From assembly GCA_010672825.2 (NCBI GenBank), contig JAAHFU020000002.1:186001-250000 (forward strand): DNA of 64,000 nucleotides, read 5' to 3'. Made by a program: the position numbers and the translations under genes. Source of the stretch: Leptolyngbya sp. SIO1E4 (GTDB lineage Bacteria > Cyanobacteriota > Cyanobacteriia > Phormidesmidales > Phormidesmidaceae). Numbering within the stretch: position 1 is the first letter of the stretch; each line of letters begins with the position of its first letter. The notes under the pieces were generated by a model. The model worked only from the letters and a program-made list of their open reading frames with translations, searched no databases and had not been told where the DNA came from. Shown here piece after piece: positions 42,687 through 48,372 of the stretch.

Positions 42687-42870
42687 GACAAGACCTCGAC
42701 CCATATTCAACTTGTTGTATATATTCTATAGTCTTCTATGAGAATATGCAACGATATGCATTTGAATTATAGCCATTCATTTCTGCCTTTGTGCTTAAGA
42801 ACGCTGAGGCTTGATAGGAACCGTTACTACAATGAGCCGTGAAACACTCAGCTACCGTGAGGCCAGCAAT

Positions 42871-44043
42871 ATGGCACAAAGTTTGTTAGAGCAACTGCGT
42901 GAAATGACCGTTGTGGTTGCCGACACGGGGGATTTGCAAGCGATCGAGCAATTCACGCCGCAAGATGCCACGACCAATCCTTCTCTGATTACTGCGGCAG
43001 CTCAGATGCCCCAGTATCACAGCATTGTGGATGAGACATTACTCAAGGCAAAACATGAGGCAGGCTCTGAGGTTTCAGATCAGGCTGTGGCGAACCTGGC
43101 CTTTAAACGATTGGCGGTGGCGTTTGGGCTCAAGATTTTAGAAATTGTGCCCGGTCGCGTTTCTACAGAAGTGGATGCCCGGCTTTCTTACGACACCGAG
43201 GCAACCATCGCAACCGCCCGCGACCTGATTGCCCAATATGAAGCGGCAGGCATGAGTCGCGATCGCGTCCTCATCAAAATTGCCTCCACTTGGGAAGGGA
43301 TCAAAGCCGCTGAAGTCCTTGAAAAAGAAGGGATTCACTGCAACCTGACCCTGCTATTTGGGTTACACCAGGCGATCGCCTGTGCTGAAGCTGGGGTCAC
43401 CCTCATCTCTCCTTTTGTAGGCCGCATTCTCGATTGGTACAAAAAAGAGACTGGCAAAGACTATCTCCCGGCTGAAGACCCCGGCGTGGAGTCTGTTACC
43501 ACGGTCTACAACTATTACAAAAAGTTCGGCTACACCACTGAAGTTATGGGTGCTAGCTTCCGCAACATTGGCGAAATCCGCGAACTTGCAGGCTCCGATT
43601 TGCTGACCATTTCTCCTAAGCTGCTGGCTCAACTTCAAGCATTGGAAGAACCCTTGGAGCGTAAACTCGACCCGTCTAAGGCTGCCACGATGGACATCGA
43701 AAAGATCACGATGGATAAGGCCACCTTCGATCGCATGCATCAAGAAAACCGCATGGCTTCTGAAAAGCTAGATGAAGGGATTAAGGGCTTCAGCAAGGCG
43801 CTTGAAACGCTAGAGCAGCTATTAGCCGAACGCCTGGCTAAGTTAAGCGCTGGCGAAGAGCTTGTAAATCATGCCGCTGAAGATCTCTTTAGCGCTTACG
43901 ATTTGGACGGCGATGGCTTCATCACCCGTGAAGAATGGCTCGGTACCGATGCTGTCTTTGATGCGCTGGATATTGACCACGACGGTAAGGTCACTGTAGA
44001 AGAGATGAACACCGGACTGGGCGGTGCTTACCAACTGGTTTAA
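42871..44043 (+). CDS. tal: Transaldolase with two C-terminal EF-hands
   Basis: Transaldolase moves a dihydroxyacetone unit between sugar phosphates in the pentose phosphate pathway. DATTNPSLI and [20 protein letters not shown] (with the Schiff-base Lys) are the family's markers. After about residue 325, the tail has two EF-hand loops, [12 protein letters not shown] and [12 protein letters not shown], with all Asp/Glu ligands in place, so calcium control is possible. Cyanobacterial transaldolases of ~390 residues with this tail are known. I start it at the ATG that gives the usual [18 protein letters not shown]; two earlier in-frame starts exist. Confidence 0.95.
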
Positions 44044-44193: not shown

Positions 44194-47100
44194 TTACATC
44201 ACAATGGGGGCAAGCGAAATGAACTCCTGGCAAATGGCTTTTTGGGCCTCAGTTGCATTGCCATAGCGCAGATAATCTTGCTGCCAGGTGCAAGCCTTAG
44301 CCATCAACGTTTCGAGGTCGTCCAAGTCATTTAAGTCAAAGTCCCATAGCTTGACGGTGCCATCATAGCTGGCAGAAGCCACGACATAGCTTGCCTCCTC
44401 GGCTGTCTGCACCGGCAAAAAAGTGATGCCTGAGACCAAACTCTTATGACCTCTGAGCGTTTGGCGTTCCTGGCCACTGTGGGTATCCCATAGCTTCACC
44501 GTGGCATCATAGCTGGCAGAGGCCAGGATAGCCCCATCCGGTGAGAAACTCACGCTACTGACCTCATTCTCATGACCTGTGAGGGTTTGACGTTCTTGGC
44601 CACTGTGGGTGTCCCATAGTTTCACGGTGCCATCGCTGCTAGCAGAGGCCAGGATAGCCCCATCGGGAGAAAAACTGACGCTGCGAACTAAGGTTGCGTG
44701 ACCTGCAAGGGTTTGACGTTCCTGGCCGCTGTGGGTGTCCCATAGTTTCACGGTGCCATCGCTGCTAGCAGAGGCCAGGATAGATCCATCGGGAGAAAAA
44801 CTGACGCCATTGACCGAATCTCCGTGACCTGCGAGGGTTTGGCGTTCTTGTCCACTATTGGCGTCCCATAGCTTCACGGTGCTGTCATTGCTGGCGGTGG
44901 CCAGGAGGGTGCTATCGGGAGAAAAACTCACGCTCCACACCGAATCTCCATGGCCTGTGAGGGTCTGGCGTGCTTGCCCATCGTCAGCGTTCCACAGTTT
45001 TACTGTGCCATTGTTACTGACGGAAGCCAGGGTGCTGCCATCAGGTGAAAAGCTGACGCTAGTGACCCAGTGTTTATGACCTTGGACGGTTTGACGTTCT
45101 TGCCCGCTGCGGGTATCCCATAGTTTCAGGGTGCCATCGCTGATGGCAGAAGCCAGGATAGATCCATCGGGAGAAAAACTGACGCTATTGACCAAGCCTC
45201 CATGACCTTCAAGGGTTTGGCGTTCTTGGCCGCTGTGGACATCCCACAGTTTGACGGTGCCATCATGGCTGGCGCTAGCCAGGGTCGTGCCATCACTTGA
45301 AAAACTTGCGCTCCAGACCCAATTTTCATGGCTCTTGAGGGTTTGGAGCCTTTGTCTACTGCTAACATCCCAAAGCTGCACTGTGCGATCGTCGCTGGTA
45401 GTTACCAGAGTGGTGCCATCGGGGGAAAAACTCACACTCCGAACCACATTCTCATGGCCTTCGAAGATATGGATCTGCTGCCCACTGCTAGCGTCCCATA
45501 GCTTGACAGTGCCGTCATGGCTGGCAGTGGCCAGGGTAGTGCCATTCGGTGAAAACCTGACACTATTCACAGAAACCCGATGACCTTCAAAGGCATGGAT
45601 CTGCTGGCCACTGCTAGTGTCCCATAGCTTGACGATGCCATCATTGCTGGCGGTGGCCAGAGCCATACCATCGGGGGAAAAACTGACACCCCAGACCGAG
45701 TCGTTGTGACCTTGCAGGGTTTTATGTTCTTGGCCAGTGTTGGCATCCCATAGCTTGACGGTGCCGTCACCGCTAGCGGTAGCCAGGATGGCGCCATCGG
45801 GGGAAAACTCCACTCTCGTGAACCAGTTGCCATGACCTTGAAGGGTTTGCAACTCCTGGCCACTGCTGACGTCCCATAGCTTTACCTGGTCATCACCACC
45901 AGCGGTGGCCAGGATAGACCCATCGGGAGAGAAACTGACGCCCGAGACCCAGTTGCCATGACCTTGAAGGGTTTGTAACTCCTGACCAGTGTTGGCATCC
46001 CATAGTTTCACCGTGCTATCGCGACTGGCAGTGGCAAGGGTGCTGCCATCGGGTGAGAAGCTTAAGCCATAGATCCAGTCCCCATGGCCTTTGAGGGTGT
46101 TGCGCACGACAAACCCCTCCAAATAATAAACTTCCTGCAAGACAGAGGTTGCTCGCAACTGAGTCACGGCGTCTAGGTGGTTATGTTCATCTTCAGGCAG
46201 GTGTCTGATCTTCTGTCCGAGTTCTAGAGCTTTCCAAAGCGCTTGGTTGTTCTGGTCTGAGGCCATCAGGTTTTCGACTGCAAGGGCCTGAGCCTGAATC
46301 TCAGCATTCAAGACTTGAGCTTGGGCTTGGGCAATTCTCTTTTGGGCAAACCAAGCAGCACCCCCAGCCGCGAGCCCTCCTATGACGATGGCCCCGGCTA
46401 CTAACCGTTTGGCCCGTACAACTGCTTTCTGGAGAATGTGGGTTGCCTGCCGATTAGCCTCTTCTACCGTGCGACTGGTGCTTACAAATTCTTGTTGCAG
46501 CTTAGTCGCTTGCGGCTCCTTTGCTTGACTCTGCTTCAGCCAGGTTTCGACTTGATCCAGCTCATCTCCCCGTAGTAGTAGGCTCTCTTTTCGACCACTG
46601 TGATCCCATTCGATCGCCCGCTGCAAATATCGCGTATGGGCCTGTAGATGCCCACGATCGGTATCCAGGGTGCTCAGCAGCCTTTGAAGGGGGGCTGTAA
46701 ACTCTCCCTCGTAGGCATGAAAGTCAATCCATTGAATCTTGGCTAACTCTGGGTGCTGGGCCAGGTCTGTCTGCTCCACAGGGTGATGCAGCACCGTGAC
46801 GATACGCTTATTCAAACTCGCCGCGTATCCCACTTCATCAGCACAGTATTGCGACTGAATAGAGGCTGGCGAAATGATAAATAGGAAATGATTGGCGGCT
46901 TCAATGCCCTTATAAATCTCTTGTTGAAAGTCAGCTCCAGAGGCAATGCTCTCTTGATCGAACCAGGTGCGTTTGCCTTGCCGTTGCAGTGCGTCATTGA
47001 GCTTGCGGGCAAATCCTGAGTTGCTTCGGGAGTAGGAGATGAAAACATCTCGCGCAATTCCAGGGGGTTGGCGATCGCTAGCGGTAATAAATTCGATTTG

Positions 47101-48372
47101 CAGGGGAGTTGGGCCATGGTTGGCATTACTCTGGGCAACTTTTAACCAATTCACGGCGTGATCTAACTCGTAACCCTGTAGCAGGATGCAAGGATTTTGG
47201 TTTTGCCGCTGCCATTTCAGGGCCTTTGTTAGCAGTACCTTGTGTTCGGTGTAATAGGCAGCCTCTTTATTCAGAACCCGCAGCAGGTCACTCTCGTCAT
47301 CTAAGTAATCGGCATCGATTTCATTATCTGTTAAATCAATGCGGTGCAAATTCTTCAGCGGATCAGGAATTTCAGCCTCATCCACAGCCCCAGCAAGCAT
47401 GACGATAATGCGTTTGTTGTACTCAAGGGCAAGGTCTATTTCCTGCTGGCACAGAGCTGACTTGAAGGCAGTGGGCGACATCAAAAAAAGGACATTATCG
47501 GCTTCTTCTACCCCTTGGGTCATTTCGACCTGGAAGTCACTGCCAAATTCAACGTCGCTATAGTGAATCCAGGTTGTGATGCCTGATCGCATGAGGCTAC
47601 GGCGAACCTGCTCAGCGATCGCCCGATCTGCCTCGGCATGGGCAATAAACACCTGGGTCATCATGTTGTGGGCATTTTTAATGCTTTCAGTGATGAACTC
47701 GTAGTGCAGATCTGTCGGGTTACAGGGTGCTTGTTGATCTAGGAAATGAATGCTTTGCCAGTCTTCTGCCTGCTGGCGCGCCTTCCCAATCAGTAAATGG
47801 TGTGATTGCTTCTGGTGGCGCTGCCAGGCCAAAGCTTGGCTGAGCAGAACGGTATGGTGATGGACATAGAGATTTTGCCGCTGCAAGATGTCGAGTAAGG
47901 CGGTAAATGCCTGCTCGTTGAAGATCTGCTCACCCCCTTTAAAGATCAACTGATTCCAGTTGATCTTTGCGATCTCAGGGTGCAAATGAGTGAAACAGGA
48001 ATGTTCTCCAGTCGCTACATATGCTTCCCAGGCTGCATCAGTGCCGCTAGGATTTCGCTGTTGCCAGGTCTGTCGGCTAATCTCCTCCACATGCATGATA
48101 GGGATTATGCGTTTGTTGAGGGAGAGTGCTAATTCAAGCTCTTTGCGACAGTAGGGAGAGGCCGTTGCGTGGGGAGAAATGATGAACAGAAAGTTATCCG
48201 ATTTCTCGATGGCGTCATCAATTTGTTTTTGATAGTCAACCCCGCCAGGAATATTTGTGAAGTCGAACCAAACGCCATAGCCCATCTGGCGCAGACGTTT
48301 CTGCAGATATGTGGCAAAGTCCAGGCTGTCTTTGCGTCCATAGGAAATGAAAACGTCTTTGAAGGGGTTCAT
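44194..48372 (-). CDS. Triple-TIR, single-TM, 14-WD40 protein
   Basis: The 1392 residues hold three TIR domains at about 5-130, 240-345 and 440-550. Each keeps the catalytic-type Glu of NAD-cleaving TIRs: E78 in YCRKEL, E311 in LCQQEI and E513 in YCADEV. The middle one has a changed first box (FIAHAEAD for FISYGRKD). Each TIR is followed by the same helical linker (ALAWQRHQ..LLIG, ALKWQRQN..LLQG, AIEWDHSG..LLRG; the last two then LQxEF). A membrane helix lies at about 657-676, and 14 WD40 repeats of 42 residues follow from 762. The tail LDDLETLMAKACTWQQDYL is shared with cyanobacterial WD40 NTPases, but no NTPase domain is present. It probably senses or signals at the membrane and may deplete NAD (inference). 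Confidence 0.92.
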   Translation of the reverse strand: MNPFKDVFISYGRKDSLDFATYLQKRLRQMGYGVWFDFTNIPGGVDYQKQIDDAIEKSDNFLFIISPHATASPYCRKELELALSLNKRIIPIMHVEEISRQTWQQRNPSGTDAAWEAYVATGEHSCFTHLHPEIAKINWNQLIFKGGEQIFNEQAFTALLDILQRQNLYVHHHTVLLSQALAWQRHQKQSHHLLIGKARQQAEDWQSIHFLDQQAPCNPTDLHYEFITESIKNAHNMMTQVFIAHAEADRAIAEQVRRSLMRSGITTWIHYSDVEFGSDFQVEMTQGVEEADNVLFLMSPTAFKSALCQQEIDLALEYNKRIIVMLAGAVDEAEIPDPLKNLHRIDLTDNEIDADYLDDESDLLRVLNKEAAYYTEHKVLLTKALKWQRQNQNPCILLQGYELDHAVNWLKVAQSNANHGPTPLQIEFITASDRQPPGIARDVFISYSRSNSGFARKLNDALQRQGKRTWFDQESIASGADFQQEIYKGIEAANHFLFIISPASIQSQYCADEVGYAASLNKRIVTVLHHPVEQTDLAQHPELAKIQWIDFHAYEGEFTAPLQRLLSTLDTDRGHLQAHTRYLQRAIEWDHSGRKESLLLRGDELDQVETWLKQSQAKEPQATKLQQEFVSTSRTVEEANRQATHILQKAVVRAKRLVAGAIVIGGLAAGGAAWFAQKRIAQAQAQVLNAEIQAQALAVENLMASDQNNQALWKALELGQKIRHLPEDEHNHLDAVTQLRATSVLQEVYYLEGFVVRNTLKGHGDWIYGLSFSPDGSTLATASRDSTVKLWDANTGQELQTLQGHGNWVSGVSFSPDGSILATAGGDDQVKLWDVSSGQELQTLQGHGNWFTRVEFSPDGAILATASGDGTVKLWDANTGQEHKTLQGHNDSVWGVSFSPDGMALATASNDGIVKLWDTSSGQQIHAFEGHRVSVNSVRFSPNGTTLATASHDGTVKLWDASSGQQIHIFEGHENVVRSVSFSPDGTTLVTTSDDRTVQLWDVSSRQRLQTLKSHENWVWSASFSSDGTTLASASHDGTVKLWDVHSGQERQTLEGHGGLVNSVSFSPDGSILASAISDGTLKLWDTRSGQERQTVQGHKHWVTSVSFSPDGSTLASVSNNGTVKLWNADDGQARQTLTGHGDSVWSVSFSPDSTLLATASNDSTVKLWDANSGQERQTLAGHGDSVNGVSFSPDGSILASASSDGTVKLWDTHSGQERQTLAGHATLVRSVSFSPDGAILASASSDGTVKLWDTHSGQERQTLTGHENEVSSVSFSPDGAILASASYDATVKLWDTHSGQERQTLRGHKSLVSGITFLPVQTAEEASYVVASASYDGTVKLWDFDLNDLDDLETLMAKACTWQQDYLRYGNATEAQKAICQEFISLAPIVM
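44330..46089 (-). repeat. Fourteen tandem 126-bp WD40-coding units
   Basis: Each unit encodes 42 residues starting GH and ending near KLWD-, for example GHGDSVNGVSFSPDGSILAS. Units 11, 12 and 13 (counted from the N-terminus) are nearly alike in DNA, which points to recent duplication; the last unit has an insertion. Fourteen blades would make two seven-bladed propellers. Confidence 0.95.

Follow-up and report, generated by a model that had tools for sequence, protein, structure and literature searches.

To our knowledge, those TIR proteins of bacteria that have been characterized to date recognize infection within the cell. Animal Toll-like receptors carry an outside sensor of leucine-rich repeats, a single membrane helix and one cytoplasmic TIR domain. 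In SfSTING, a residue contributed by the opposite TIR completes the NADase site of a TIR domain (PMC9402430). In Sau-Thoeris, ThsB2 requires its catalytic residues, whereas those of ThsB1, its partner TIR, are dispensable (PMC11312562). Both systems are precedents for neighboring TIR domains that complete or activate a site. Here, we analyzed a gene of the cyanobacterium Leptolyngbya sp. SIO1E4 that encodes three TIR domains, a membrane helix and 14 WD40 repeats in one protein. It is located in a stretch of 64,000 nucleotides (the window; contig JAAHFU020000002.1, positions 186,001 to 250,000). The evidence tips, if only slightly, toward an outside-sensing type II membrane receptor, the cytoplasmic TIR triplet of which would form a composite NADase centered on the first TIR domain (TIR1).

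The layout predicted from the sequence would resemble that of animal Toll-like receptors in its outside repeat-type sensor, its single membrane helix and its cytoplasmic TIR domains. However, the TIR domains are N-terminal (type II), are three and non-equivalent instead of one, and retain the NADase-type Glu, and the sensor consists of propellers, which are not homologous to the leucine-rich repeats. An outward-sensing membrane TIR receptor, if true, would mean that bacteria, too, have a Toll-like layout, albeit by a different construction. As in Thoeris, non-equivalent TIR domains are proposed to cooperate, one as the catalyst and one as its partner, but ThsB1 and ThsB2 are soluble, separate proteins that need ThsA (PMC11312562), whereas here the TIR domains are fused and membrane-bound and no ThsA was found adjoining the gene. 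Completion of a site by the neighboring TIR upon assembly, which we propose here, has been shown for the TIR-STING filament NADase, where assembly is driven by binding of a cyclic dinucleotide to STING (PMC9402430), whereas the fused triplet has no STING domain. The Npun WRAP double propeller (PDB 2ymu), with its STAND/TIR neighbor (PMC9218822), is likewise cyanobacterial, is built of 14 repetitive WD40 blades and can be aligned over both propellers; yet it belongs to a STAND ATPase protein, while the protein studied here has no NTPase and its array follows a membrane helix. The source genome also encodes nSTAND1-TM-WD40, AAA_35-TM-WD40 and kinase-TM-WD40 proteins (TM, transmembrane helix), in which a WD40 array free of Cys likewise lies behind a membrane helix, in most cases with a pair of Cys in the tail; they differ in having other N-terminal modules instead of the TIR triplet.

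The open reading frame (ORF) is complete, begins with ATG, encodes 1392 amino acids (aa) and occupies exactly positions 44194-48372, as a first-pass annotation made from the sequence alone had placed it, leaving unstated that it lies on the minus strand. That annotation had described three units of a TIR domain plus helical linker, no NTPase, and 14 WD40 repeats in two seven-bladed propellers, and all of this was confirmed (Table 1). Pfam gave the domain order TIR1-TIR2-TIR3-TM-14xWD40, with three matches to TIR_2 (PF13676; E 3.3e-78) and 14 to WD40 (E 1.5e-173), and no other domain was seen outside these two regions. An AlphaFold2 model of aa 1-720, based on alignment A1 with 18 relatives (mean predicted local distance difference test score, pLDDT, 86.8; predicted template modeling score, pTM, 0.78), places a helical linker behind each TIR. 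The TIR fold of the segments 240-345 and 440-550, on which the annotation was open to refutation, was recovered when the model was aligned with VIA-align: TIR2 (aa 238-370) matched the Hydra TRR-2 TIR with Z 20.1 (root-mean-square deviation 1.9, 124 residues) and SARM1 with Z 19.3, and TIR3 (aa about 439-573) matched the SPARTA TIR-APAZ with Z 18.4. The listed structural alignments covered these two domains, and TIR1 was assigned by Pfam and by PDB sequence matches. No STAND, NB-ARC or NACHT NTPase was present among the 25 of 66 matched Pfam families listed, and the interval between the TIR and WD40 regions consists of linker, membrane helix and stalk (Pfam and AlphaFold2), so that the protein lacks the TIR-NTPase-WD40 order of TIR-STAND/NLR-like proteins. 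The model of aa 690-1392 (mean pLDDT 87.2, pTM 0.56) contains two seven-bladed propellers, at aa 753-1046 and about 1049-1346 (VIA-align, Z 46-51), the best match being the designed WRAP-T 7big (Z 51.3); at this pTM, each propeller is well defined and their relative placement is not.

The sole strongly hydrophobic segment revealed by hydropathy analysis of the protein is aa 657-676. The membrane helix reported between the TIR domains and the propellers is thus present, but it does not appear to be a mere separator of parts on one side of the membrane, since several lines of evidence support a location of the propellers outside the cytoplasm. In a set of 43 TIR-TM-WD40 proteins (42 with three TIR domains, one with one), Cys accounts for ∼1.1% of the residues before the membrane helix and ∼0.02% after it, while the last 60 residues contain a mean of 1.9 Cys. 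In the same set, the mean of Lys plus Arg (K+R) is 5.1 for the TIR side of the helix vs 3.0 for the WD40 side. As a control, 25 recovered proteins of the source genome with at least five WD40 repeats were sorted by the presence of a membrane helix ahead of the array. All 14 arrays behind a helix (one of them, L109, with a helix score of 1.59) contain no Cys, and 13 of these proteins have exactly two Cys in the tail, whereas all 11 arrays without such a helix contain 3-16 Cys. Similar results were obtained for loci of many genomes, where at most one Cys was found in 62 of 64 helix-linked arrays vs 2 of 41 without a helix (p = 1.6e-18, Mann-Whitney test, which takes the proteins as independent although they are not entirely so), the other 39 helix-free arrays being Cys-rich. 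Among the two exceptions, part of the tail motif is present in L164, a helix of which may have escaped detection, and a weak hydrophobic segment lies close to the N-terminus of L166. The rule extends over very different N-terminal parts, namely three TIR domains, one TIR, AAA_35, caspase-nSTAND1, nSTAND1 and protein kinase, for which a single inherited array is not an easy explanation. In some family members, the WD40 array is replaced directly after the same helix by CHASE2, an extracellular sensor domain (PMC8195603; PMC5587647). Taken together, the split of Cys, the charge asymmetry and the exchange for CHASE2 argue strongly for a predicted N-in/C-out topology with the propellers outside the cytoplasm. 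It is possible that a Cys-free array behind a helix is a general rule for outward-facing WD40 arrays, and this cysteine rule would provide a simple sequence test for such arrays in bacteria. Examples from the source genome of Cys-free arrays behind a helix, mostly with the tail pair, in proteins with AAA_35, nSTAND1, caspase-nSTAND1 or kinase parts are L112, L108, L099, L102, L107, L103, L109 and L114.

The Glu at the catalytic position is present in all three TIR domains (E78, E311 and E513), and the first box of the middle TIR is degenerate (QVFIAHAEAD), both as annotated at first; the WxD motif of TIR2 is gone as well (TWIHY). At six key positions, TIR1 has S, Y, R, D, W and D, while TIR2 has A, H, E, D, W and H. 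The best PDB sequence matches of TIR1 are a Paracoccus TIR protein, followed by Cat1, AbTir, TIR-APAZ and SARM1, and that of TIR2 is a Toll-related receptor TIR. To compare the positions across the family, 49 TIR1, 49 TIR2 and 44 TIR3 units were used. TIR1 retains box 1 (SYGRxDS), WxD and Glu, the latter in 49 of 49 units (one truncated at its start), and all scored active-site residues are kept wherever aligned, except for a few changes at Tyr74. In TIR2, the box 1 Arg that corresponds to Arg13 of TIR1 is lost, as is, in most units, the Asp of the WxD motif (Asp37), while Ser72 and Cys75 are retained, and Glu in 44 of 49 units. In TIR3, the presence of Glu varies with the sensor (29 of 32 WD40 forms vs 3 of 10 CHASE2 forms). 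A maximum-likelihood tree of 79 TIR units showed one group per position, with support of 97 for TIR1, 100 for TIR2 and weak support for TIR3. The triplet was therefore most simply laid down once and its order kept thereafter, and three interchangeable TIR copies can be ruled out. The membrane-bound TIR cluster envisaged in the first-pass annotation thus stands insofar as a membrane anchor, three fused units and a propeller sensor are predicted, but not as three equal copies. Since TIR1 is invariant, TIR2 is systematically degenerate and TIR3 varies, a composite or asymmetric enzyme is a better fit than a symmetric cluster. Three proteins with five TIR domains (L071:7224-11786, L074:3-4358 and L078:7434-11963) have the order T1-T2-T1-T2-T3, which shows that the T1-T2 pair duplicates as a unit; in L071, the only one of them subjected to a Pfam scan, CHASE2 forms the end of the protein.

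We propose the following mechanism for the receptor. The three TIR-linker units would reside in the cytoplasm and the single helix would span the membrane, while a helical stalk would hold the two propellers, closed by a C-terminal disulfide, in the periplasm, or in the thylakoid lumen if the protein is sited there. The propellers may sense an outside ligand or a damage signal, and binding of the ligand or clustering of receptors would change the clustering or the position of the stalk and rearrange the tethered TIR triplet. The active site of the invariant, NADase-type TIR1 could then be completed with the help of its neighbors, with TIR2 acting as the degenerate partner and TIR3 providing a second site or a surface for dimerization. 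Cleavage of NAD+ would act through depletion or through an ADP-ribose signal and lead to an immune or cell-death response. We have moderate confidence that the triplet has NADase activity; the ligand and purpose of the receptor are proposed only weakly. The ordered triplet would also offer a single-chain system for asking how TIR domains activate each other.

Several points weigh against this receptor. WD40 propellers are generally regarded as intracellular, Cys depletion is an indirect sign of topology, arrays that expand through amplification of their blades do not count as fully independent, and the helix at aa 657-676 is only moderately hydrophobic (1.88). The retention of Glu in 44 of 49 units indicates that TIR2 is possibly less dead than its boxes suggest. 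Finally, a conserved partner gene was not found for the WD40 form, the recurrent neighbors belonging mostly to the CHASE2 form or to closely related genomes. The modest hydrophobicity of the helix would suit a membrane-tethered, wholly cytoplasmic protein, in which the helix anchors or dips and the propellers provide a scaffold for protein binding or a sensor inside the cell, as they would in NLR-like proteins; the propellers of the soluble NB-ARC-WD40 proteins of this genome are indeed cytoplasmic by architecture, these proteins having no membrane helix. However, such an arrangement would be at odds with the near-perfect split of Cys by the helix, the Cys pair in the tail, the charge asymmetry and the replacement by CHASE2, and we consider it improbable. 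Likewise, the triplet could be a non-enzymatic scaffold that signals through TIR-TIR contacts to other TIR proteins, like the TIR domains of animal receptors, and does not cleave NAD. A fixed, ordered triplet is well suited to assembly, the 35 TIR_2 matches of the genome represent many possible partners, and the best PDB sequence match of TIR2 is the TIR of a Toll-related receptor. Since the catalytic-type Glu and WxD of TIR1 are invariant in every aligned member and AbTir, Cat1, SARM1 and TIR-APAZ, all of them NADases, are among the sequence matches of TIR1, this appears improbable to us as well, though less so than a cytoplasmic location.

A receptor of the same topology and enzyme could also serve another purpose than the one we favor, responding to acid, redox, cell-wall or light stress and adjusting NAD or making an ADP-ribose messenger. 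No defence island surrounds the gene, and CHASE2 members stand beside DUF928 genes in several loci, CHASE2/DUF928/WD40 gene groups having been linked to outside signals (PMC5587647). The patchy distribution, the expansion of paralogues and the plasmid and transposase settings described below fit conflict genes as well. Moreover, bacterial TIR domains of known role act mostly in immunity, and a non-immune purpose seems rather unlikely, although it is the most serious of these alternatives. Returning to the outside-sensing receptor, we may extend the proposal to a single-chain bacterial counterpart of Toll-like receptors, in which catalysis falls solely or mainly to TIR1, TIR2 is a degenerate activator and the WD40 and CHASE2 parts are swappable outside sensors, and in which the Cys-free, disulfide-capped propeller on the outside is a general sensor module that STAND, kinase and caspase membrane proteins of cyanobacteria have in common; our confidence in this extension falls a little short of even.

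Contrary to the implied rarity of the architecture, four of the five TIR+WD40 proteins examined in the source genome (8.2 Mb, 12 contigs) carry three TIR domains, and this genome encodes five triple-TIR proteins in total. A unique or misassembled fusion is ruled out by these five paralogues and by many relatives in the same register. Relatives of the first 704 residues were found at E < 1e-100 in at least 21 of 59 related genomes, while in an even draw across the phylum 10 of 292 genomes had a match at E ≤ 1e-60, pointing to a patchy distribution. Named cyanobacterial relatives are Cyanothece SIO2G6, Scytolyngbya, Baaleninema simplex PCC 7105, Nodosilinea, Dolichospermum and Nodularia, and relatives outside the Cyanobacteria occur in a Thiotrichales metagenome-assembled genome (MAG), a MAG labelled Dichelobacter nodosus and a plasmid of Bernardetia (Bacteroidota). 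The triplet is thus found across the Cyanobacteria and in two other phyla. The 94 pattern matches in viral contigs included no relative. On the Bernardetia plasmid (L181:5995-8499), the three TIR domains and the membrane helix are followed by a coiled-coil-like tail that replaces WD40 or CHASE2, and several transposases adjoin the gene. In the openly accessible literature we found no paper on multi-TIR bacterial membrane receptors, on this TIR-WD40 family or on outside bacterial WD40 arrays. Triple-TIR proteins constitute an old and widespread family that is apparently unstudied; their parts are already known, while the combination and the topology evidence appear to be new.

Table 1. Features of the triple-TIR gene and their positions in the window (residue numbers refer to the 1392-aa protein).
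Feature	Position	Strand	Evidence
Whole ORF: TIR1-TIR2-TIR3-TM-14xWD40	44194..48372	-	ORF listing; Pfam
TIR1, aa 4-166; canonical box 1 FISYGRKDS, VWFD, SPYCRKE; E78 at 48139-48141	47875..48363	-	Pfam; class conservation; PDB sequence matches
Helical linker 1, aa 167-234; helices 167-185, 196-206, 221-234; no Pfam match	47671..47874	-	AlphaFold2
TIR2, aa 238-370; box 1 degenerate, without WxD, Glu retained; E311 at 47440-47442	47263..47661	-	AlphaFold2 + VIA-align; class degeneracy
Helical linker 2, aa 371-433; helices 371-389, 400-413, 423-433	47074..47262	-	AlphaFold2
TIR3, aa 439-572; canonical boxes, WFD; E513 at 46834-46836	46657..47058	-	AlphaFold2 + VIA-align
Helical linker 3, aa 573-624; helices 573-591, 602-615	46501..46656	-	AlphaFold2
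Membrane helix, aa 657-676; TIR side K/R-rich, K+R 5 vs 2 per 18 residues	46345..46404	-	Hydropathy; family charge asymmetry
Helical stalk from membrane to propeller 1, aa 677-752	46117..46344	-	AlphaFold2
Seven-bladed WD40 propeller 1, aa 753-1046; zero Cys	45235..46116	-	AlphaFold2 + VIA-align, Z about 46-48
Seven-bladed WD40 propeller 2, aa about 1049-1346; zero Cys	44335..45228	-	VIA-align, Z 51.3 to v13WRAP-T 7big
C-terminal helical cap; conserved Cys pair C1361 + C1381, proposed disulfide	44197..44325	-	Both Cys invariant in alignment A2

The gene is solitary, flanked by a convergent gene for a transaldolase and a divergent ORF without Pfam match. The transaldolase (window 42811-44043, plus strand) has two EF-hands fused at its C-terminus. 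A HIT-family protein is encoded further along, as are genes that we take, from reading their translations, to be psbA-like and transporter-like. The role in phage defence that had been suggested as possible is not borne out by this setting, since the flanking genes are housekeeping or unrelated genes, PADLOC detected no system, and the gene does not lie in a defence island. Among the nine flanking proteins, PADLOC found neither a system nor ThsA, and only a weak ThsC match to the HIT-family protein. Within the protein itself, the defence models of PADLOC and NCBIfam have matches in the TIR parts only, those of NCBIfam below their cut-offs, which together with the lack of a flanking ThsA rules out Thoeris or another known system. 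Promoter and terminator scans gave an output close to that of shuffled sequence.

CHASE2-type triple-TIR genes recur beside DUF928 (L042, L074, L075, L077, L087, L098 and the Kovacikia plasmid L180), and ShlB/FhaC-type or CHAT/TPR genes are also near some CHASE2-type loci. Two of the five triple-TIR genes of the source genome (L039:3809-7435 and L040:14906-18502) adjoin an NB-ARC-WD40-type gene, and a third triple-TIR locus with a similar neighbor was observed in Nodosilinea (L090).

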